Below are positions 33,528 through 42,192 of a DNA stretch of 64,000 bases, piece after piece. Source of the stretch: Bacteroidales bacterium. Its GTDB lineage: Bacteria; Bacteroidota; Bacteroidia; Bacteroidales; UBA932. The translations under genes were made by a program, and so were the position numbers. The stretch covers positions 1 through 64,000 of the forward strand of contig JAFSVL010000088.1 of NCBI GenBank assembly GCA_017445015.1, given 5' to 3'. The notes under the pieces are model-generated. The model ran no database searches and had not been told where the DNA came from. It saw only the letters and a list, made by a program, of their open reading frames with translations. Within the stretch, counting starts at the first letter, position 1. The number at the start of each line of letters is the position of its first letter.

Positions 33528-33661
33528 TGAAAAAATTACCTGCAGCACTTTTCCTGACGTCGCCCTGCGGGCGACCCCTCCCAAAACAAGTTCTGGGCCC
33601 CTCCCTCTCATAGCCACCGAGGGTGGCACAGGCGATAAAAGTGCCGCAGGTAATTTTTTCA
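33528..33661. repeat. Palindromic intergenic element 1 (134 bp)
   Basis: Outer arms 33528-33543 and 33646-33661 are perfect 16-bp complements, then one mismatch, then 8 more pairs (33545-33552 with 33637-33644). Inside are two small hairpins: GTCGCC/GGCGAC (33559-33575) and GCCACC/GGTGGC (33613-33627). The core GGGCCCCTCCC (33595-33605) and AGCCAC..GGGTGGC are shared with element 3. No ORF. It fills the gap between ybeY and higB. Confidence 0.8.
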
Positions 33662-33674
33662 AATACTAAATTTA

Positions 33675-33699
33675 GCCGTTGAATAAAATTTTCAACGGC
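33675..33699. repeat. 9-bp hairpin upstream of higBA
   Basis: GCCGTTGAA and TTCAACGGC with a 7-nt A/T loop. It lies 12 nt upstream of the first of two -7 boxes. Could be a terminator for upstream transcription or an operator. Confidence 0.45.
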
Positions 33700-33710
33700 A
33701 CGTTGTCGCC

Positions 33711-33777
33711 TATATTTGTCGCCGAAAATAGCCAAAAAGTTGTATGGTATTGAAACATTTTTTATTTTTGTCGCCGA
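33711..33777 (+). promoter_or_regulatory. Tandem -7 boxes of higBA with repeated TCGCCGAA
   Basis: TATATTTG at 33711-33718 and TATTTTTG at 33763-33770 are each followed at once by TCGCCGAA, 52 bp apart. The second box is 7 nt from the toxin ATG. The repeated downstream octamer is a candidate operator for self-repression by the antitoxin. Confidence 0.5.
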
Positions 33778-34125
33778 ATGAGGAAGATTCTCACGTACGG
33801 AGGTTACTTTGAGGAATTCCTCGGAACCTTACGGGCAGATATTGTCAGAAAGATTGACTATGGCCTTGTGCTGTTGAAATCACATGAAAGATTGCCGACA
33901 AAATTTGTCAAGTATATTGAGGATGGTCTTTTCGAATTACGAATAGAATGGGAAGGTGATATTTACCGGGTATTTTTCATTTTTGACAACGGCAATATAG
34001 TTGTTCTTTTCAATGGCTTCCAAAAGAAGTCTCAAAAGACACCCAGAAAGGAAATTGAGAAGGCAAAACGAATAATGGCAGAGTATTATGAGACGCAAAA
34101 GCGATCGAACAACAAGGGATTATGA
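33778..34125 (+). CDS. HigB/RelE-type toxin (Gp49-like)
   Basis: 115 residues of the phage-derived Gp49-like/HigB family, ribosome-dependent mRNA interferases. Characteristic pieces: DYGLVLLKSHERLPTKFVKYIEDGLFELRIEW, YRVFFIFDNGNIVVLFNGFQKKSQKTP, and a C-terminal EIEKAKRIMAEYY helix. The Arg and Lys of the YRVFF and FQKKSQKTP motifs are the usual active residues. It is followed by an overlapping HTH antitoxin gene (38 nt). Codon use and base composition are more AT-rich than the neighbours, as expected of a transferred module. Confidence 0.92.
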   Translation: MRKILTYGGYFEEFLGTLRADIVRKIDYGLVLLKSHERLPTKFVKYIEDGLFELRIEWEGDIYRVFFIFDNGNIVVLFNGFQKKSQKTPRKEIEKAKRIMAEYYETQKRSNNKGL

Positions 34126-34405
34126 TGTAACTTTGGATGCAAAGTATGGTGCACCCGGGACGGCCGAAAGAGAGAAGTTCGAGGCGGAAGCGGAGGCTTT
34201 TTATTCCGGGCGACTGCTACGTGATGTCCGCAAAGAAGCAGGAATGACGCAATCACAGGTTGCAGAAAAGATAGGTGCAAATAAAAGTTATATCTCCCGA
34301 ATCGAGAACGGGCAGATTATACCGACCGCGTCCTCGTTTTTCCGCATCGTGGCTGCCATGGGCATGCAGGTACAGATTACAAAAGAGGTCTCCCCGTGGA
34401 TGTAA
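34088..34405 (+). CDS. HigA-type antitoxin with XRE helix-turn-helix
   Basis: 105 residues. The C-terminal half is an XRE HTH domain: LLRDVRKEAGMTQSQVAEKIGANKSYISRIENGQIIPTASSFFRIVAAMGMQVQI. The N-terminal part is a free linker that normally contacts the toxin. Start ATG 34088 lies 38 nt inside the toxin gene, giving the toxin-first order of HigBA systems. It likely represses its own promoter by binding the repeated TCGCCGAA sites upstream of the toxin. Confidence 0.92.
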   Translation: MRRKSDRTTRDYDVTLDAKYGAPGTAEREKFEAEAEAFYSGRLLRDVRKEAGMTQSQVAEKIGANKSYISRIENGQIIPTASSFFRIVAAMGMQVQITKEVSPWM

Positions 34406-34427
34406 CCGCGCTCTCGCCATTTTTTGA

Positions 34428-34435
34428 TATCTTTG
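34428..34435 (+). promoter_or_regulatory. -7 box of mnmG
   Basis: TATCTTTG, exact TAnnTTTG, 21 nt before the GTG chosen for mnmG; it rules out the TTG start at 34424. Confidence 0.6.
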
Positions 34436-34456
34436 CACGATATTTCAAGCGGAGCG

Positions 34457-36319
34457 GTGGAAAGGCAGTATGATATCATCGTCATCGGCGGCGGACACGC
34501 GGGCTGCGAAGCGGCCTGCGCCGCTGCCGCCCTGGGCTCCTCCGTCCTGCTTGTTTCGATGGATCTGCGGGGGTTTGCGCGCATGTCGTGCAACCCCGCG
34601 GTCGGCGGTATCGCCAAAGGCCAGATTGTCCGGGAAATCGATGCGCTCGGAGGCTGGAGCGGCATCATTACCGACCGTTCAACGCTGCAGTTCCGCATGC
34701 TCAACCGTTCCAAGGGACCGGCGATGTGGAGCCCCCGTGCCCAGTGCGACAAGCAGGCGTTCTCGGCAAACTGGAGGCAAGTGCTTGAAAATCAGTCAAA
34801 TCTGAATCTATATGCCGATACGGTGACGGAATTGGTCTTCGAAGGACGCCGCGTCTGCGGTATCCGTACGCTCACGGGCGCCGTCTTCCGCGCAAAAGCC
34901 GTCATCCTGACGACGGGAACCTTCCTGGGCGGAAAACTCTTCATCGGGCGCAACAGTTTTGAGGGCGGCCGCATCGGAGAGCCCGCATCCCACGGAATTA
35001 CGGAGCAACTGGCGGCGATGGGGGTACGCCAGGCAAGGATGAAGACCGGGACGCCTCCCCGCATCGACATCCATTCCGTAGATACGGCTGCGCTTACCGT
35101 GCAGGAGGGGGATGCCGATCCGCGGAAATTCTCCTTTGGAGACGAACTTTCGGCCATCCAGCGCAGCGGCACCCAGATGCACTGCTATATCCTCCATACC
35201 AATCCGGCCGTCCATGACGCGCTCCGCAGGGGTTTTGATGATTCTCCGCTCTTTACCGGCATGATCCGCGGGATCGGGCCGCGCTACTGCCCGAGCATCG
35301 AGGATAAATTGCGCGTATTCCCCGACAATGACGCCCATCAGCTTTTTCTGGAACCCCAGGGCGCAGCCACCAGCGAATACTACCTTCAGGGCTTTTCCTC
35401 CTCGCTTCCCCTGGACGTGCAGCTGGACGCACTGCATAGGATCAAGGGACTGGAAAACGTCCGCATCTTCAAGCCCGCCTATGCGGTCGAATACGATTAT
35501 TTCGATCCTCTGCAGTTGGATGCCTCCCTGCGGCTGCGTGATCTGGAAGGACTTTTTCTGGCCGGACAGGTCAACGGGACCACGGGTTACGAGGAGGCGG
35601 CCGCACAGGGGATCATGGCAGGCATCAACGCCCATCTGGCACTGAAGGATAAGGAACCGTTTGTCCTGAAACGCAGCGACGCCTATATCGGGGTCTTGAT
35701 CGACGACCTGATGACCAAAGGGGTGGATGAGCCGTACCGGATGTTCACCTCGCGTGCCGAATACCGTATCCTCCTGCGGCAGGACAACGCCGACCGGCGT
35801 CTGACGGGCCTTTCCCACGCCCTCGGCCTGGCTTCAGAAGACCGGTATGCGGCCATGCAGCGCAAGTATGAGGAAGCGGACGCGCTGGAAAGCTGGTGCG
35901 GAGCCACCAACCTGACGGCAGCGGAGGCGAACCCCTATCTCCAAAGCAGGGGTTCCGCCCCTATAGGGGATTCGCGCAGGATCGCCGACCTGGCGACGCG
36001 ACCCGAGGTGAGTCTTGGGGATTTGCTCCGGATTGTTCCACGTGGAACACCGGAAAGCCCGGAGGTCGTCGAGTCCGTGGAAATCAACCTCAAATACCGC
36101 GGCTACATCGACCGGGAAATCCAGTTGGCGCAGAAAGTATCCCGCCTCGAAGACCTGCGGATTCCGGAAGGATTCGATTTCGACGGCGTGAGCGGACTGA
36201 CCATCGAATGCCGCCAGAAACTCAAACGCTACCGCCCCCGTACCCTGGCGCAGGCCTCCCGGATTTCCGGCGTTTCCCCTGCGGATATCGCCGTCCTCCT
36301 GGTCCGCTTCGGCCGATAA
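34457..36319 (+). CDS. mnmG: tRNA 5-carboxymethylaminomethyluridine-34 synthesis protein MnmG
   Basis: 620 residues from GTG 34457, giving the usual N-terminus MERQYDIIVIGGGHAGCEAA right before the FAD motif. MnmG with MnmE modifies U34 of tRNAs. Motifs: MSCNPAVGGIAKGQIVREID, RMLNRSKGPAMWSPRAQCD, TTGTFLGGKLFIG, RMKTGTPPRID, LAGQVNGTTGYEEAAAQG and FTSRAEYRILLRQDNADRRLT. The conserved Cys of SCNP is present. The C-terminal helical MnmE-binding domain is complete (INLKYRGYIDREIQ, YRPRTLAQASRISGVSPADIAVLL). Confidence 0.95.
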   Translation: MERQYDIIVIGGGHAGCEAACAAAALGSSVLLVSMDLRGFARMSCNPAVGGIAKGQIVREIDALGGWSGIITDRSTLQFRMLNRSKGPAMWSPRAQCDKQAFSANWRQVLENQSNLNLYADTVTELVFEGRRVCGIRTLTGAVFRAKAVILTTGTFLGGKLFIGRNSFEGGRIGEPASHGITEQLAAMGVRQARMKTGTPPRIDIHSVDTAALTVQEGDADPRKFSFGDELSAIQRSGTQMHCYILHTNPAVHDALRRGFDDSPLFTGMIRGIGPRYCPSIEDKLRVFPDNDAHQLFLEPQGAATSEYYLQGFSSSLPLDVQLDALHRIKGLENVRIFKPAYAVEYDYFDPLQLDASLRLRDLEGLFLAGQVNGTTGYEEAAAQGIMAGINAHLALKDKEPFVLKRSDAYIGVLIDDLMTKGVDEPYRMFTSRAEYRILLRQDNADRRLTGLSHALGLASEDRYAAMQRKYEEADALESWCGATNLTAAEANPYLQSRGSAPIGDSRRIADLATRPEVSLGDLLRIVPRGTPESPEVVESVEINLKYRGYIDREIQLAQKVSRLEDLRIPEGFDFDGVSGLTIECRQKLKRYRPRTLAQASRISGVSPADIAVLLVRFGR

Positions 36320-36344
36320 ATGTTCCACGTGGAACAATCCAGAG

Positions 36345-36944
36345 TTACAGCATCTGCAGGGCGGCCTTGATGATTTCCTCCACGGAAGCCGTGGGGTTCT
36401 TCTTCAAGATAGCCTGTACGGCTTTGGATACCGCCTGTTTGGGGAATCCGAGCAACTGGAGTGCTGTGCCCGCCTCGTCCGCGGCCTGGTTCCGGTCCGT
36501 TCCTGCGAACAGGGCCGGTGTCCCGGTCTCTCCGTCGCCCCGTACGATTTTGTCCTTGAGTTCCAATACCAGCCGCTGTGCCCCTTTCAGCCCGATTCCC
36601 TTCACGCTCTTGATTCTTGCAACATCCTCAGAAAGAATGGCTTCGCGTAATTCTTCAGCACTCAGGGAGGAGAGCAGCATCCGCGCCGTGGAAGCCCCCA
36701 TTCCGGATACGCCGGTAATCATGCGGAACAGGTCCCTTTCCTCCTTCCCGGCAAATCCGTAATAGACGGCCGTCCCCTCGCGGGGGTTTACCTGCTGTTG
36801 TACGTAAATCGTCGCTTCCGGCTTGTTTTCCAGTTGCGAGTAGGTACGCAGCGATATTTCCATTCCATAACCGATCCCGTTGTTGTCTATGACGACCCGG
36901 GTCGGGGTCAATTCGGCAATTCTGCCCGAGACATAATCGTACAT
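36345..36944 (-). CDS. ruvA: Holliday junction DNA helicase subunit RuvA
   Basis: 199 residues. RuvA tetramers bind Holliday junctions and load RuvB. The OB domain starts with MYDYVSGRIAELTPTRVVIDNNGIGY, followed by YGFAGKEERDLFRMITGVSGMG and SVKGIGLKGAQRLVLELKDK, the two helix-hairpin-helix motifs, then a C-terminal RuvB-binding three-helix domain (ADEAGTALQLLGFPKQAVSKAVQAI). Convergent with mnmG, divergent from sufS. A -7 box lies 4 nt from the ATG. Confidence 0.97.
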   Translation of the reverse strand: MYDYVSGRIAELTPTRVVIDNNGIGYGMEISLRTYSQLENKPEATIYVQQQVNPREGTAVYYGFAGKEERDLFRMITGVSGMGASTARMLLSSLSAEELREAILSEDVARIKSVKGIGLKGAQRLVLELKDKIVRGDGETGTPALFAGTDRNQAADEAGTALQLLGFPKQAVSKAVQAILKKNPTASVEEIIKAALQML

Positions 36945-36948
36945 GCCG

Positions 36949-36956
36949 CAAATGTA
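36949..36956 (-). promoter_or_regulatory. -7 box of ruvA
   Basis: Minus-strand TACATTTG, exact TAnnTTTG, 4 nt from the ruvA ATG. Confidence 0.6.
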
Positions 36957-36968
36957 TGTAAAATTTGT

Positions 36969-36976
36969 TAATTTTG
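36969..36976 (+). promoter_or_regulatory. -7 box of the sufS-sufE-sufT-folK unit
   Basis: TAATTTTG, exact TAnnTTTG, 18 nt before the sufS ATG and back to back with the ruvA box. Confidence 0.6.
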
Positions 36977-36994
36977 CAGGATTATACAGTTAAG

Positions 36995-38221
36995 ATGAGT
37001 ACCGTTTCCGACATCCGTGCGCAATTCCCGCAACTCTCCGAGAAAGTTTACGGGAAGCCGCTGGTCTATCTGGACAATGCCGCCACCTCCCTGCGCCCGC
37101 AGTCCGTCGTCCGCCTTTGGGAGGATCTGTCGCTGAGGCACAATGCCAACGTGTTCCGTGCCGTACACAAGTTCTCTTCTGAAGCCACCCGGTTTTACGA
37201 GGATGCGCGCAGGGCGGTGGCCGCCCATATCGGCGCGGCGTCCCAGCGGGAGATTGTCTTCACCTCCGGCGATACGGCGTCGCTGAATCTCGTCGCCCGC
37301 TGTTTCGGCGCGGCTTTCGTCGGTCCGGGGGATGAAATTCTCGTCGCGCAGAGCGAACATCACTCGAATCTGGTTCCCTGGCAGATGCTTTGCCGGGAAA
37401 AGGGCGCCCATCTGAAGTGCCTTCCCGTGGATGAAAAAGGACGGCTGTGTGTGGAAATGCTGCCGCAGATGCTTTCCCCCCGCACGAAACTGCTCTGCGT
37501 CGCGGATATCTCGAATGTGCTGGGACTGCGCAATCCGGTCGCCGAAATCGTGCGCATTGCCCACGAAAAGGGCTGTCCGGTGCTCCTTGACGGGGCTCAG
37601 GGCATCGTGCATGAAAAAGTCGATGTACAGGCGCTGGACTGCGATTTTTATACCTTTTCCGGACATAAGGTGTATGCCTCGCCCGGGACGGGCGTGCTGT
37701 ATGGCAAGCGCAAGTGGCTGGAGGCGATGCCGCCGCTGATGGGGGGCGGGGAGATGATTGAAAATGTGGCTTGGGAAAGCAGCACCTATGCGGCTCCGCC
37801 CCATAAATTCGAAGCGGGAACTCCGAATATTTCCGGTGTGCCTACGCTGGTTCCCGCGCTAGAGATGGCCCGTACGCTGAACTCCGGGGAAATCGCCGCA
37901 CAGGCGGGCGCCGTGAGGGATTTCGTCCTGGACGCGCTGCTTGCCTTTCCGGGGCTGCGTCTTTTCGGACTCCCGGAGCGGAAGTCGGACAAAGTGCCGA
38001 TTTTTTCCTTTACCGTCGAGGGGGTGCATCACGAAGACCTGGCGCTGCTGCTGGATAAAATGGGGATTGCCGTGCGTTCCGGGCAGATGTGCGCGGAGCC
38101 GCTGATGACGCGCTTCGGCGTGACCGGCATGCTGCGCGCTTCGTTTGCGCCGTACAATACGATGGCGGAGGCGGAATATTTTGTTACCTCGCTTAAAAAG
38201 GCGATCGATATGCTAAAGTGA
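36995..38221 (+). CDS. sufS: SufS-type cysteine desulfurase
   Basis: 408 residues from ATG 36995 (an upstream in-frame codon lies before the -7 box and is rejected). It removes sulfur from cysteine for Fe-S cluster assembly. Seen: GKPLVYLDNAATSLRPQSV, HKFSSEATRFYEDARRAVAAH, SEHHSNLVPWQ, VLLDGAQGIVHEKVDVQ, PLP Lys225 in FSGHKVYASPG and active Cys366 in RSGQMCAEPLM with the SufS-type extended beta region. The usual TEGT after the first strand is SGDT. SufE, its sulfur acceptor, is the next gene after a palindromic element. Confidence 0.94.
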   Translation: MSTVSDIRAQFPQLSEKVYGKPLVYLDNAATSLRPQSVVRLWEDLSLRHNANVFRAVHKFSSEATRFYEDARRAVAAHIGAASQREIVFTSGDTASLNLVARCFGAAFVGPGDEILVAQSEHHSNLVPWQMLCREKGAHLKCLPVDEKGRLCVEMLPQMLSPRTKLLCVADISNVLGLRNPVAEIVRIAHEKGCPVLLDGAQGIVHEKVDVQALDCDFYTFSGHKVYASPGTGVLYGKRKWLEAMPPLMGGGEMIENVAWESSTYAAPPHKFEAGTPNISGVPTLVPALEMARTLNSGEIAAQAGAVRDFVLDALLAFPGLRLFGLPERKSDKVPIFSFTVEGVHHEDLALLLDKMGIAVRSGQMCAEPLMTRFGVTGMLRASFAPYNTMAEAEYFVTSLKKAIDMLK

Positions 38222-38334
38222 TTTTCGGTGCGCTGTTTCCGAGGGGTGCCCTCTGCTCCCTGTCGCTTGCGCGACCCTGTCCGGGTAAATGGTCGCAGAA
38301 GGCATCCCTCTACAACTGAACGGCGCACCGAAAA
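38222..38334. repeat. Palindromic intergenic element 2 (113 bp)
   Basis: Arms TTTTCGGTGCGC (38222-38233) and its complement 38323-38334 (12 bp); inner arms 38241-38250 with 38301-38310 (10 bp, one G-U) and TCTGC/GCAGA (38252-38256 with 38295-38299). A central hairpin GTCGC-TTGC-GCGAC (38262-38275) matches that of element 1. It starts at the base after the sufS stop and ends 15 nt before the sufE ATG. Confidence 0.8.
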
Positions 38335-38349
38335 CCGAACAGACACATT

Positions 38350-38760
38350 ATGAGTTTACAAGAAGCAAAACAGGCCGTCATCGACGATTTTTCACTCTAT
38401 GATGAGTGGCTGGACAAATATGAGTATCTGATTGAACTGGGAAGGGGACTGGAACCCTTCGACGAATCGCACAAGACGGAGGACCGCCTGATCAAGGGAT
38501 GCCAGTCGCGTGTCTGGCTGGACTGGCGGCTCGAGGACGGAAAACTCTGGTTCACGGCGGATAGCGACGCAATCATTACCAAGGGCATCATTTCGCTGCT
38601 GATCAGCGTGTATTCCGGCCGTACGCCCGCGGAAATCGCCGGGGACGACTTCGCTTTTGTGGGCGAAATCGGCCTGCAGGAAAATCTGTCGCCGACGAGG
38701 GTGGGCGGGCTGCGCTCAATGATGGATACGATTCGTAAAATTGCAAAACAAAATGCCTGA
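38350..38760 (+). CDS. sufE: Sulfur acceptor protein SufE
   Basis: 136 residues. SufE takes the persulfide from SufS. Family features: DDFSLYDEWLDKYEYLIELG, HKTEDRLIKGCQSRVWL with the active Cys of the loop, and the C-terminal SLLISVYSGRTPAEIA and LSPTRVGGLRSMMDTIRKIA helices. Directly linked to sufS and overlapping sufT by 8 nt, forming a small Suf set; the sufBCD scaffold genes are not in the window. Confidence 0.96.
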   Translation: MSLQEAKQAVIDDFSLYDEWLDKYEYLIELGRGLEPFDESHKTEDRLIKGCQSRVWLDWRLEDGKLWFTADSDAIITKGIISLLISVYSGRTPAEIAGDDFAFVGEIGLQENLSPTRVGGLRSMMDTIRKIAKQNA

Positions 38761-39130
38761 TAAAGAAGTACTTACACCGGATGATGTGAAAGAGCTCGCC
38801 CCGCTGTACGAGGCGGTGGTGATTGCGTTGAAGCAGGTCTATGACCCGGAAATTCCGGTGAACATCTATGACCTGGGGCTGATTTATGAACTGCATATCA
38901 GCAAGTCCCGTGAGGTGTATGTGAAGATGACTTTCACCGCGCCCACCTGTCCGATGGCGGAGGAGGTGCTTGCGGAGGTAAAGCATACGGTGGAAATGAC
39001 GCCCGGCGTGAACGCCTGTCACGTGGAACTGACCTTTGAACCGCCCTGGGACCAGAGCCTGCTTTCCGATGAGGCCCGTATCGCCCTGGGCTTCGATCCT
39101 GACCTTGACGGTGATGAAAGCGGTCTCTGA
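38753..39130 (+). CDS. SufT/MIP18-family Fe-S assembly protein
   Basis: 125 residues from ATG 38753, which overlaps the sufE stop. It is a DUF59 protein of the SufT/PaaD/MIP18 type with EAVVIALKQVYDPEIPVNIYDLGLIYEL, the HISKSREVYVKMTFTAPTCPMAEE segment with the conserved Cys, and the VELTFEPPWDQSLLSDEARIALGF end. Such proteins help mature Fe-S clusters. The suf neighbourhood supports this. folK overlaps its end by 17 nt. Confidence 0.92.
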   Translation: MPDKEVLTPDDVKELAPLYEAVVIALKQVYDPEIPVNIYDLGLIYELHISKSREVYVKMTFTAPTCPMAEEVLAEVKHTVEMTPGVNACHVELTFEPPWDQSLLSDEARIALGFDPDLDGDESGL

Positions 39131-39554
39131 CCTCCCGACGGCGACCCTGCTGCTCGGGAGCAATCTCGGTGACCGGGCCGGAGCGCTCGCGCAAGCGCAG
39201 CGACGGCTCGACGCCCTGCTGGGAGAACGTGCGGTGGCATGCTCGCAGACCCTCGAAACCCAGGCTGTCGGATTCGACGGACCGCCTTTCCTGAACTGCA
39301 TTTTGCGGTATCGCTGCGCGCTCGGCGCCTACCAGCTGCTCGATGCCTGCAAGGGCATCGAAAGGGCGATGGGACGGACGGACCGGCCGCAATATGCCGC
39401 GGACGGCAGCCGGATCTACCATAACCGCATCATCGATATCGACATCCTCTTCCTCGGTGACCTGGAAATCCATTCGGACAGGCTGATACTGCCGCATCCC
39501 CAGGTCAGCTCCCGGCCCTTTGTGGGACAGCTTCTAAGCAGTCTTTCAGAATGA
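39114..39554 (+). CDS. folK: HPPK, folate biosynthesis pyrophosphokinase
   Basis: 146 residues from ATG 39114, chosen because MKAVSDLPTATLLLGSNLGDR starts the domain; the longer frame overlaps sufT deeply. FolK transfers pyrophosphate to 6-hydroxymethyl-dihydropterin. Motifs LLLGSNLGDR, YQLLDACKGIERAMGR, and HNRIIDIDILFLGDL with the two catalytic Asp, then LILPHPQVSSRPFVGQLL, are complete. It is the last gene of the suf transcript. Confidence 0.95.
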   Translation: MKAVSDLPTATLLLGSNLGDRAGALAQAQRRLDALLGERAVACSQTLETQAVGFDGPPFLNCILRYRCALGAYQLLDACKGIERAMGRTDRPQYAADGSRIYHNRIIDIDILFLGDLEIHSDRLILPHPQVSSRPFVGQLLSSLSE

Positions 39555-39572
39555 AAATTGAAAAATATTTCG

Positions 39573-39580
39573 TAAATTTG
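39573..39580 (+). promoter_or_regulatory. Orphan -7 box
   Basis: TAAATTTG just before the AAA-ATPase relic; it would have driven that lost gene. Confidence 0.4.
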
Positions 39581-39581
39581 G

Positions 39582-39689
39582 GAGGGCTGCGTCTATGTGG
39601 ACAAGACTGATTTAATCTTCGATATCGCCTGGAGAACTGGAGACTGGGGTAGGTATGTAGCCACTGCTACACTCCTTCATCATATCTAA
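39582..39689 (+). pseudogene. N-terminal relic of a PF09820-type AAA ATPase (YVDKT motif)
   Basis: A 35-codon open stretch reads EGCVYVDKTDLIFDIA and then drifts to a TAA at 39687-39689. The x-x-x-Y-V-D-K-T-D-L-I motif is the early signature of AAA-ATPase-like/PD-(D/E)XK proteins common in Bacteroidales. There is no start codon, the frame is stopped directly upstream, and no P-loop follows. It sits beside an AT-rich ATPase gene on the other strand, in a gap where genes have come and gone. Confidence 0.5.
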
Positions 39690-39726
39690 AAAATAATTCC
39701 ATCAAATCTATAGTTCATACTTGTGA

Positions 39727-41094
39727 TTACTTCAACCCGGATAAATCCGGCTTCAGAATCATTGATTCATCAATACGTCCTTCTTGTTTCAGGAACATAA
39801 CCATATAGATAGGGATATTCAGTATGTTTCCATCACGGGACAAGTTGTCATTACACAGGACAACACCCTTTTTTGTGTTGTATTGCTCGTTCCCTAATAC
39901 GTTTGTGAGGGCCGCATGCAGTTGATAATCCTTGCCGGATTTCACTTCAACAGGGAGCACAATCCCATCTCGCGTTTCAAGAAGGAAATCAAGTTCACCT
40001 TGTTTTTTGCTGTTAAAGTAATACAATGATGAATAACCATGCGACAGCAGTTCCTGAGCCACCACATTTTCGTAGATGGAACCATAGTTTATGTTCACTT
40101 CCCCGCTGAGTATCTTCAACTGGATTCCTTTTGCCAACTGTGTGACCAGCAATCCCACGTCATTTTGGAAAAGTTTAAACAGGTTTCTCTGTTTGCTGAG
40201 CAACAGCGGGACCTTCGGCTCTTCGACATTGAATACCGGAATAGCTACTCCTGCGTTTTTCAGCCACAGGAAACTGTTTTCATATCTCGCATACTTTGCG
40301 TTCTCATTCAGCTTCTTGAGAATAAACCGCTTGTTCTTTGCATTCAGTTCTGAAGGAATCAGGTCGAAGATTTCATTCAGATATAGTTTTTGGTCCGGAT
40401 CATACTGAGCAATATCCCGTTTGTATAATCTCAGTATAGCTTCATGCTCGGATGAAACCTTCTGTATGTCATTTGTTTGAACGTATTTATCGACTGCAGC
40501 AGGCATCCCCCCTACAACCAGGTATATCTGGAAAAGCCGCATCATCTGATCATGTACGAAAGAATCCACCGGCTTTTCTTCCTCATAACAAGTTCTCAGG
40601 TGTTCCAGAACAGAGGGGGCCACGCCAACGGTGTTCGCAAATTCTTCAAAATCCAGGGGGAAAACGTCAATGATATCCATAAATCCAACCGGAAACGAGC
40701 GGACGATATCCTTCAATTCAACGCCAAGCAGGGAACCCGTCAAGCCATAAGTATAGCGCCCGTCCTCCACCAGGAATTTTATCATTGTCACGCATTCCGG
40801 GCATTTCTGAACTTCATCAAGCAAAATGAATGTTTTGCCCGGCACCAATTTGGTTCTCGTAAAGGAAGACAGGCGCAGCATAATATCGTCCACTCCTGCG
40901 GCATTGTTAAAAATTGACCTTGCGGCCTCATTTTTAACAAAGTTTATCTCAACATAATTCTGAAAATGGCTCTCAGCATATCTTCTGAAAGCGACCGTTT
41001 TCCCAACCTGACGTGCACCATCCAACATCAGCGCCATATTATGATGGTTTTCGTAAAAGTCGCTAATTATGAGATCCAACTTTCGGTTTATCAT
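39727..41094 (-). CDS. DUF4143 ATPase (AAA_14 plus PD-(D/E)XK-like C-terminus)
   Basis: 455 residues from ATG 41092-41094, with a good ribosome site GGAAGAG upstream; the longer frame to 41193 is rejected. N-terminal AAA ATPase: P-loop LDGARQVGKT, Walker B FILLDEVQKCP, sensor TGSLLGVELKD. C-terminal DUF4143: GSIYENVVAQELLSHGYSSLYYF, QGELDFLLET, VLPVEVKSGKD, i.e. an E-x-D-x-x-x...E-V-K pattern of the restriction-endonuclease fold. Function of this widespread family is unknown. The gene is visibly more AT-rich than its neighbours, suggesting recent transfer. The upstream gap holds the palindrome ATGGAAAATTTCCAT (41157-41171). Confidence 0.88.
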   Translation of the reverse strand: MINRKLDLIISDFYENHHNMALMLDGARQVGKTVAFRRYAESHFQNYVEINFVKNEAARSIFNNAAGVDDIMLRLSSFTRTKLVPGKTFILLDEVQKCPECVTMIKFLVEDGRYTYGLTGSLLGVELKDIVRSFPVGFMDIIDVFPLDFEEFANTVGVAPSVLEHLRTCYEEEKPVDSFVHDQMMRLFQIYLVVGGMPAAVDKYVQTNDIQKVSSEHEAILRLYKRDIAQYDPDQKLYLNEIFDLIPSELNAKNKRFILKKLNENAKYARYENSFLWLKNAGVAIPVFNVEEPKVPLLLSKQRNLFKLFQNDVGLLVTQLAKGIQLKILSGEVNINYGSIYENVVAQELLSHGYSSLYYFNSKKQGELDFLLETRDGIVLPVEVKSGKDYQLHAALTNVLGNEQYNTKKGVVLCNDNLSRDGNILNIPIYMVMFLKQEGRIDESMILKPDLSGLK

Positions 41095-41156
41095 AATACT
41101 CTTCCTTTTTTTCTTTGCAATAATAAGAATAATTTCCACTTTTTCCGACTGTTTTG

Positions 41157-41171
41157 ATGGAAAATTTCCAT
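41157..41171. repeat. Palindrome upstream of the DUF4143 ATPase
   Basis: ATGGAAAATTTCCAT, 7-bp arms. It is in the otherwise empty 214-bp gap between the ATPase and tonB, where only the tonB promoter is also recognised. Possible operator. Confidence 0.4.
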
Positions 41172-41268
41172 TTTTTCTCAGCACCGTGTACACTTACCTA
41201 TGCCGAATATTATTTCCAATTCAAAACAGCTTTTAAAATAAAAATTGGATTATTCGATTAATTATTGC

Positions 41269-41276
41269 TATCTTTG
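41269..41276 (+). promoter_or_regulatory. -7 box of tonB
   Basis: TATCTTTG, exact TAnnTTTG, with a TTG 21 nt upstream (41245-41247) as a -33; 32 nt before the ATG. Confidence 0.6.
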
Positions 41277-41308
41277 GGGATGAATGTCGCAAAAACAGTT
41301 CAAAGGAT

Positions 41309-41998
41309 ATGGAAATAAAGAAGTCGGATAAAGCAAGTCTTGAGAATAAGAGACTTCTTTTCGTGGAAATCGGATTCGTGGTCGCTCTGGCCGTCGTGCT
41401 GTTCGCTTTCGAGTGGAGCAGCAAGGAAAAGTCGGCTGCCGTACTCGATGCCGGTAACCAGGAAATCATCGAGGAGGAAATCATCCCCATCACCCAGGAA
41501 ACTCCTCCGCCCCCTCCCGAGCAGATCAAGATTCCCGTACTCTCGGACAATATCGACATCATCGATGACGATATCAAGGTCGATGACAACATCATCAATC
41601 TGGAAGATGCTTCTGACCTGGGAGTAGAGATTCAGGATTACAAGGAGGAAGTGGTCGAGGAAGTGGTCGAGGAAGAGGCGATTCCCTTCCAGCTGGTGGA
41701 AGAGAAGCCGACCTTCCAGGGCGGCGATGCCAACGCCTTCTCCGCCTGGGTGGCGCAGCATATCAATTATCCTGAGACGGCCAAGGAAAACAACGTCCAG
41801 GGACGTGTGATGCTGCAGTTTACAGTGGAAAAGGATGGCAGCGTGACCGGTGTGAAGGTGGTCCGCGGCGTCGATCCCGAACTGGACAGGGAAGCGGTGC
41901 GCGTCGTGAAGAGTTCCCCGAAGTGGAAGCCTGGACGGCAGCGTGACCGCGCCGTGAAGGTGACTTATACCTTCCCCGTTTATTTCCAGCTTCGTTAA
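41309..41998 (+). CDS. tonB: Energy transducer TonB
   Basis: 229 residues. One N-terminal TM segment (LLFVEIGFVVALAVVLFAFEW), a periplasmic linker with a short proline run TPPPPPEQIKIP and an acidic repeat region (EEVVEEVVEEEA), then the TonB C-terminal domain (YPETAKENNVQGRVMLQFTVEKDGSVTGVKVVRG, SPKWKPGRQRDRAVKVTYTFPVYF). It couples the inner-membrane ExbBD motor to outer-membrane receptors; exbBD are not nearby. Followed by an intrinsic terminator. Confidence 0.95.
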   Translation: MEIKKSDKASLENKRLLFVEIGFVVALAVVLFAFEWSSKEKSAAVLDAGNQEIIEEEIIPITQETPPPPPEQIKIPVLSDNIDIIDDDIKVDDNIINLEDASDLGVEIQDYKEEVVEEVVEEEAIPFQLVEEKPTFQGGDANAFSAWVAQHINYPETAKENNVQGRVMLQFTVEKDGSVTGVKVVRGVDPELDREAVRVVKSSPKWKPGRQRDRAVKVTYTFPVYFQLR

Positions 41999-42020
41999 AA
42001 CTTAATTGTATTTTTGTTGG

Positions 42021-42047
42021 AAGGCTGCCGGATGGCGGCCTTTCTTT
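42021..42047 (+). terminator. Intrinsic terminator after tonB
   Basis: Stem AAGGCTGCC / GGCGGCCTT (9 bp, one G-U) with loop GGAT, followed by TCTTTG. Confidence 0.75.
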
Positions 42048-42068
42048 GATAATTGAACGATAATGTGG

Positions 42069-42192
42069 GAGAAAGTTTTATCTGTCTAAAAACTACGGAC
42101 CTCCGGTCCTGTCTCTCCCACGCCTACGGCGCGGGCCCCTCCCGTTCACGAGCCACGGGCGGCTACGGTTTTTAGACAGGCAAAACTTTCTC
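42069..42192. repeat. Palindromic intergenic element 3 (124 bp)
   Basis: Arms GAGAAAGTTTT (42069-42079) with 42182-42192 (11 bp), a 2x2 interior loop, then CTGTCTAAAAAC (42082-42093) with 42168-42179 (12 bp). Inner hairpin GGACC-TCC-GGTCC (42097-42109). Core GGGCCCCTCCC (42133-42143) and AGCCACGGGCGGC (42151-42163) match element 1. It ends 16 nt before the hflX ATG. Confidence 0.8.

Follow-up and report, generated by a model that had tools for sequence, protein, structure and literature searches.

Palindromic repeats with a covarying core and private but self-matching arms in a Bacteroidales genus: candidate mobile elements possibly recognized by their fold

Results

The window, i.e., the whole stretch of DNA that we analyzed, comprises 64,000 nucleotides from a Bacteroidales bacterium (contig JAFSVL010000088.1 of assembly GCA_017445015.1, positions 1 to 64,000), whose genome (G000) is 2.30 Mb and 80% complete. 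It contains three strongly folding elements, 1, 2, and 3, all of which are intergenic; as a first, sequence-only reading had pointed out, elements 2 and 3 stop 15 and 16 nt, respectively, upstream of the next ATG. The same reading had proposed long palindromes at 33528-33661 and 42069-42192 with a conserved sequence common to the two. Indeed, both have 25-nt arms (96% and 92% complementary), and exact GGGCCCCTCCC is found in the window as two copies only, namely in elements 1 and 3. The features of these two elements are as follows:

33528..33661, + strand: element 1, complete palindromic element of subfamily A (fold, inverted-repeat listing, core model)
33528..33552, + strand: 5' arm of element 1, pairing with 33637-33661 (96% complementary)
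33637..33661, + strand: 3' arm of element 1 (inverted-repeat listing)
33553..33636, + strand: core of element 1 (covariance model, 55.5 bits; this copy is within the training set)
33603..33627, + strand: proposed pseudoknot of element 1, CCCTC (33603-33607) with GAGGG (33619-33623) in the loop of GCCA/TGGC (read from the sequence, with the family-wide covariation as background; the element 1 copy is among the 20 not parsed)
42069..42192, + strand: element 3, complete palindromic element (fold, inverted-repeat listing, core model)
42069..42093, + strand: 5' arm of element 3, pairing with 42168-42192 (92% complementary)
42168..42192, + strand: 3' arm of element 3 (inverted-repeat listing)
42088..42173, + strand: core of element 3 (covariance model, 67.9 bits, E 1.3e-16; outside the training set)
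42141..42164, + strand: proposed pseudoknot of element 3, CCCGT (42141-42145) with ACGGG (42155-42159) in the loop of AGCC/GGCT (read from the sequence and based also on covariation across the family)

The computed RNA folds have energies of -62.8 kcal/mol (z -7.2) for element 1 and -58.7 kcal/mol (z -5.6) for element 3, and 0 of 200 shuffles were equally good in either case. When Rfam was searched, tRNA was the sole match of the window at the gathering score, and five element loci searched at E up to 5 gave just two unrelated matches below that score. On the minus strand of the core, furthermore, G-runs (GGGAGGGG ... GGGAGGG) are present at window positions 33576-33605, and in element 3 only near 42133-42143; these runs could confer a predicted capacity for G-quadruplex formation on the strand opposite the core.

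Element 2 has a strong fold (-63.1 kcal/mol, z -6.6) and is described by the following two features:

38222..38334, + strand: element 2, a distinct repeat built along similar lines (strong fold, no core-model match, relative in locus L012)
38261..38322, + strand: inner part of element 2 common to L012 (63 nt, 79% identity)

Its outer stem in that fold is composed of about 17-19 pairs instead of the 22 counted earlier, and the 12 inverted repeats of at least 18 nt listed for the window do not include element 2. Nor did the idea of one core common to all three elements survive for element 2, to which the core model gave no match up to E = 5 (elements 1 and 3 having scored 55.5 and 67.9 bits, respectively). 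A relative of its inner part was found in the same genome (63 nt at 79%, E 1.5e-7; L012, 831-892). Given this relative and the lack of a core match, we consider element 2 to be another, rarer repeat of similar design. The GGGTAAATGGTCG motif is shared by element 2 and L012, as is a hairpin, which is GTCGC/GCGAC in one and GTTGC/GCAAC in the other; a viral scan for the element 2 motif gave zero matches.

Elements 1 and 3 are members of a large family. The covariance model of the core (R1; 82 positions) was built from 35 copies including element 1 and excluding element 3, and genomes were scanned with it at E 0.001, with up to 75 candidates scored per genome and strict filters, so that all copy counts per genome are lower bounds. 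This genome-wide search, which the sequence-only reading had suggested, placed the core at many other loci: at least 26 matches were found in G000, together with 23 exact copies of GGGCCCCTCCC, mostly within such palindromes. Of 37 genomes of the same genus, 33 have core-model matches (the highest number being at least 49, in G027), with the best matches in G013 and G031 being weak, whereas no match was obtained for G002, G010, G018, and G025; copy numbers are high in G011, G023, G016, and G004 as well as in G027. The same scan of 24 genomes representing other families within the order gave no match. The core element is present also in a named relative, 'Candidatus Cryptobacteroides caccocaballi' (L113), and the genus of the window is presumably Cryptobacteroides, too. 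An exact-pattern scan of named genomes gave at least 120 loci, among which 52 of those listed were sorted by title to Bacteroidales/Bacteroidia; 52 of the other 68 listed loci were assigned to an alphaproteobacterial type. No paper on this palindrome family was found with a few search terms among open-licence papers, which is weak evidence of absence. As a side observation, two core copies lie 116 nt apart at the end of contig C39 of G000 (L002/L003) and a similar copy lies at the start of C46 (L008), perhaps because the assembly was interrupted by an array of repeats.

Within the core, 103 different inner sequences were counted for the hairpin that separates the two conserved blocks. Of 160 elements tried, 20 were not parsed; in 137 of the other 140, the dinucleotide following the second CCCTCCC is complementary to the two loop bases that precede GGG in the subsequent hairpin, versus a mean of 39 and a maximum of 54 in shuffles. 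These counts are not independent events because the copies are related. This pairing involves seven dinucleotide combinations and 32 different hairpin stems. Since the loop pairing and the hairpin stem cross each other, a pseudoknot would result if both stems form.

We then compared the sites of the elements with those of relatives, as had also been proposed. All 15 relatives that could be compared have an unfilled junction at the site of element 2, between genes that we take to be sufS and sufE. Among 27 relatives, the gap of element 3 is about 4-20 nt long without the element in 19, filled in two (G023 and G071), and not comparable in six. Being missing from most comparable relatives, elements 2 and 3 look like insertions. 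The copies in G023 and G071 (L204 and L223) have similar arm ends and are probably orthologous, with the core of one inverted relative to the other, as might be expected from recombination between the arms.

While all three window copies are intergenic, 42 of 162 Bacteroidales-type elements lie within open frames with at least 60 codons on each side, a mechanical count in which some frames look spurious. All eight proteins that were chosen because they looked recognizable have Pfam matches, namely to Radical_SAM_N (YgiQ-like), FAD_syn/Flavokinase (RibF-like), UPF0004 plus Radical_SAM (MtaB-like), MurB_C, shikimate kinase, TruB, M20 peptidase, and aminotransferase. In at least four of these eight (L036, L071, L230, and L239), a domain runs across the element or domains lie on either side of it. 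In the genes that we presume to encode YgiQ, RibF, MtaB, and AroK (the names of these and the other element-bearing proteins being our assignment), the same loops are occupied in several species, with differing arms and in both orientations. The core is absent from 4 of 13 loops in YgiQ, 27 of 41 in RibF, 7 of 19 in MtaB, and 12 of 21 in AroK. RibF of G003 was rejected as an empty site, being better explained by a later deletion between AGGGT repeats, and AroK of G153 was set aside as possibly a deletion of the same sort. Other repeats, likewise in frame, occur in these loops (L289-L428), such as one that codes for CHSERSEES and a tandem one of VHQNPENTGSC in G171 (L377).

In terms of arms, most copies are private. 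Arms are shared by 0 of 78 copy pairs in G007, 0 of 91 in G019, 3 of 45 in G034, and 2 of 120 in G004; in G000, they are shared by 22 of 210, and the 12 printed pairs all represent the element 1 subfamily (A). Indeed, seven further loci of G000 (L001, L013, L016, L020-L022, and L028) carry the arms of element 1, so that the earlier description of arms as completely different does not hold without exception. In the core, a 31-nt block is identical in 7 of 13 copies in G007, and the hairpin is variable in G019, where at most 3 of 14 copies form an identical group. In a test excluding the sequence that adjoins the core, the pairing score of an element's own arms had a median of 34 versus 12 for 800 cross pairs and exceeded the 99th percentile of the cross pairs in 131 of 154 elements. 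In a mixed non-Bacteroidales set, arms beyond the core paired better than chance at 1 of 73 places; once the adjoining sequence was taken into account, a score of 28 or more was reached at no fewer than 12 of 82 non-Bacteroidales places, two of which are L035 and L094 of Microbacterium. Matching arms were found also at Caloramator L047 (score 25) and, by eye, at L122. The left arms of unrelated loci show a weak in-register consensus, whose level was reached by 0 (G007), 3 (G019), 4 (G004), and 43 (G034) of 2000 random shifts. Donor copies of arms elsewhere in the G007 genome (61% complete) were looked for with two of 12 arms, and neither had a second occurrence.

Compensatory changes in orthologous arms are genuine but uneven between loci. 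With arm limits chosen by the analyst, 6 of 8 differing pairs are compensated between G023 and G071, 1 of 3 between G173 and G088 in RibF, and 0 of 3 between L072 and L073. Three comparisons in MtaB gave 2/6, 3/5, and 3/8 (8/19 together), and ten comparisons of five species in YgiQ gave 10 of 52 altogether, ranging from 2/2 (G089/G104) down to 0/7 (G089/G143), with 0/3 for G089/G082. The sequence-only reading had offered two accounts of the palindromes, and the first, namely structure kept by covariation, is thus supported in the core and partly in the arms; likewise, the compensation for which it had proposed a test is seen at some loci such as G023/G071 and not at others such as L072/L073 and G089/G143. 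Beside the YgiQ element, pairing extends into host codons, and one position, picked after inspection, is paired in 4 of 4 orthologues read (out of five, all but G143) as G-C, A-T, A-T, and C-G.

A search for target-site duplications around 132 elements gave one exact 4-mer, one 5-mer, and no 6-mer, all within the shuffles; 3-mers (8 versus a shuffle mean of 2.4 and maximum of 6) and shared 5-mers within 12 nt (14 versus a mean of 7.8 and maximum of 14) were somewhat high.

As candidate movers, two kinds of genes were considered. DUF559 had no match in G000 (80% complete) and matches in 5 of 61 genus genomes, and those five loci are without the core, one having a lone motif. Y1_Tnp was also not found in G000 at E 0.001 in the same 80% of the genome; Y1 transposase-like frames are present in 45 of 61 genus genomes, and none of 12 such loci that we examined has a full core, while four of them contain an isolated CCCTCCC or the complementary sequence. 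Neither gene being adjacent at the examined loci, both were rejected as a local mover. In alphaproteobacteria, on the other hand, a DUF559 gene is flanked by inverted CCCTCACCCTCCC-hairpin-GGGCCCCTCCC palindromes, like a small mobile unit:

L063 (1456-1869), L098, L102 (2914-3405), and L116, and less clearly L089: DUF559 between inverted core copies (two Pfam-confirmed)

The one exact-pattern viral match was of the alphaproteobacterial type by the analyst's reading, and phage carriage was set aside.

Discussion

We favor, with a probability of roughly 0.55, the reading that elements 1 and 3 are non-autonomous mobile palindromes that are recognized by their fold and whose arms would be built or rebuilt on site through fold-back copying. 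The elements measure roughly 100-150 nt, and the fold to be recognized would consist of the conserved CCCT and CCCCT pieces, the CCCA-hairpin-TGGG stem, and the third hairpin with its loop pairing upstream (the putative pseudoknot), closed by the long outer arms. An enzyme acting in trans may insert the folded strand, either RNA or single-stranded DNA, between genes or, where the frame and the protein loop permit, within genes. Because the arms would need only to be able to pair, their sequence would be free. At the new site, the strand would fold at the core, and one arm would be templated by the other, the template being element DNA at some loci and possibly extending into host DNA at others; after insertion, both arms would tend to change in concert. 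This reading is favored by the number of copies and their spread across the genus, the gaps unfilled in most comparable relatives, the in-frame copies, the self-matching arms with their compensatory changes, the core covariation, the pairing that reaches into host codons beside the YgiQ element, and the two G007 arms without a second occurrence. Since the comparison included one genome per species and hence no before-and-after pair, movement at the present day is what we infer from these patterns.

The lengths of inserts bear on where the arms come from. At 33 filled sites in four genes, the insert length was taken from the filled site versus shorter unfilled loops. At 17 of 33 sites (AroK 8/8, YgiQ 4/7, RibF 3/8, and MtaB 2/10), the insert equals or exceeds the palindrome in length; eight of these carry little weight, being longer by more than about 20 nt and containing other sequence. 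At the other 16, 11 range from the core plus half an arm up to the full palindrome, and five fall below. The class of an insert depends on how far the arm pairing is traced, and orthologous YgiQ elements fall into different classes because pairing enters the host codons in some. The arrival of both arms with the element was rejected as a rule, in that 5 of 7 selected loci fit and the whole set of 33 is mixed. The sites are thus split 17 versus 16 between arms that may be brought by the element and arms that may be copied from host DNA. The same split applies to the second account in the sequence-only reading, i.e., the flank copied as an inverted repeat, for which 16 inserts are short enough and 17 are not.

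In its strict form, that account would have the core alone as the mobile part, one arm being flanking host DNA and the other an inverted copy made upon insertion. We regard this as rather unlikely, if well worth keeping in mind. The short inserts speak for it, e.g., in RibF, 102-108 nt for a palindrome of 126 in G173 and 108-114 for 132 in G215. Furthermore, the left arm of RibF in G173 encodes PLGQGE, which resembles PLGAGE of the unfilled G190, the left arm in MtaB encodes IVP, to be compared with IVP in G034 (with another element) and LVP in the unfilled G106, and host codons covary beside the YgiQ element. Against it speaks AroK, where all eight inserts reach the palindrome length and that of G007 is 111-126 nt for a palindrome of 116 nt with arms perfect over 30 nt, and so do element 2 (an insert of about 132 nt for 113 nt) and the element 3 gap in G023 (about 128-144 nt by hand count for 124 nt). 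The weak in-register consensus of left arms across unrelated loci also argues against it, although a target preference could explain this as well. Fold-back copying of whatever adjoins the core, as in our favored reading, would cover both the long-insert and the short-insert loci.

Several observations nonetheless count against the fold-back reading: arm compensation is uneven; insert lengths disagree between genes (AroK 8/8 versus MtaB 2/10); subfamily A arms are kept at eight loci, as ordinary copying would give; exact target-site duplications of at least 4 nt stay within the shuffles; and the above searches revealed no mover. We would advance only tentatively, as possible and not probable, the bolder idea of a new mobile class that depends on nothing but its fold to move and provides itself with fresh matching inverted repeats at each site via fold-back copying. 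If this is true, ends would differ at almost every insertion, those in basic-enzyme genes included.

A family of miniature inverted-repeat transposable elements (MITEs) mobilized by an ordinary transposase, with terminal repeats that drifted apart, would be of fitting size and would account for the same arms at the eight loci of subfamily A; it appears improbable, given that no copy pair in G007 (0/78) shares arms despite the 31-nt core block identical in 7 of 13 copies and that duplications of 4 nt or more stay within the shuffles. A selected, non-mobile RNA or mRNA-level signal such as an attenuator or a stabilizer, with which the core covariation and the positions of elements 2 and 3 just upstream of start codons would agree, is very improbable, because most comparable relatives have the same gaps without the element, copies lie within unrelated enzyme genes in both orientations, and no Rfam family is matched.

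Private yet matching arms would make the origin and upkeep of a palindrome directly testable; such arms are hard to reconcile with ordinary transposition. In-gene insertions comparable to those of Rickettsia palindromic elements (RPEs) are common in a Bacteroidales genus, the same enzyme loops being occupied across many species. Also, the closely similar alphaproteobacterial core beside DUF559 nuclease genes, together with the matching-arm copies in Microbacterium and Caloramator, would suggest a candidate partner enzyme.

Among known systems, MITEs are similarly short, non-coding, and present in many copies, but ends here are mostly unshared (the exception being G000 with subfamily A), and target-site duplications of 4 nt or more do not rise above shuffles. 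REP/RAYT systems have palindromic repeats as well; REPs are given as 20-40 bp in one report (PMC3733652), whereas the family here is roughly 100-150 nt and its core is missing from the 12 Y1-transposase loci. Mitochondrial repetitive hairpins are also mobile-looking: in PMC2800124, flanking duplications are described as absent for the hairpin elements of Allomyces, and those of sponges have conserved stems and variable loops, while stems are variable here and the loop and single-stranded parts are conserved. The alphaproteobacterial palindromes flanking DUF559 have CCCTCCC-hairpin-GGGCCCCTCCC in common with our family, but there the gene lies between inverted copies, and none of the five DUF559 loci of the genus has the core.

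In our analysis, the nearest known kind is the RPE. No Rickettsia title appears among the matches listed in the exact-pattern scan (at least 120 loci). The title of a 2002 paper reportedly calls protein-coding palindromes a unique but recurrent feature of Rickettsia. According to PMC10969869, RPEs are palindromes of about 150 bp, some of them in frame in conserved protein genes, and RPE families are said to encode a conserved peptide. The present family is set apart from RPEs, by description only, through its private self-matching arms, covarying core, and Bacteroidales host, and it resembles them in having copies in frame within conserved protein genes.
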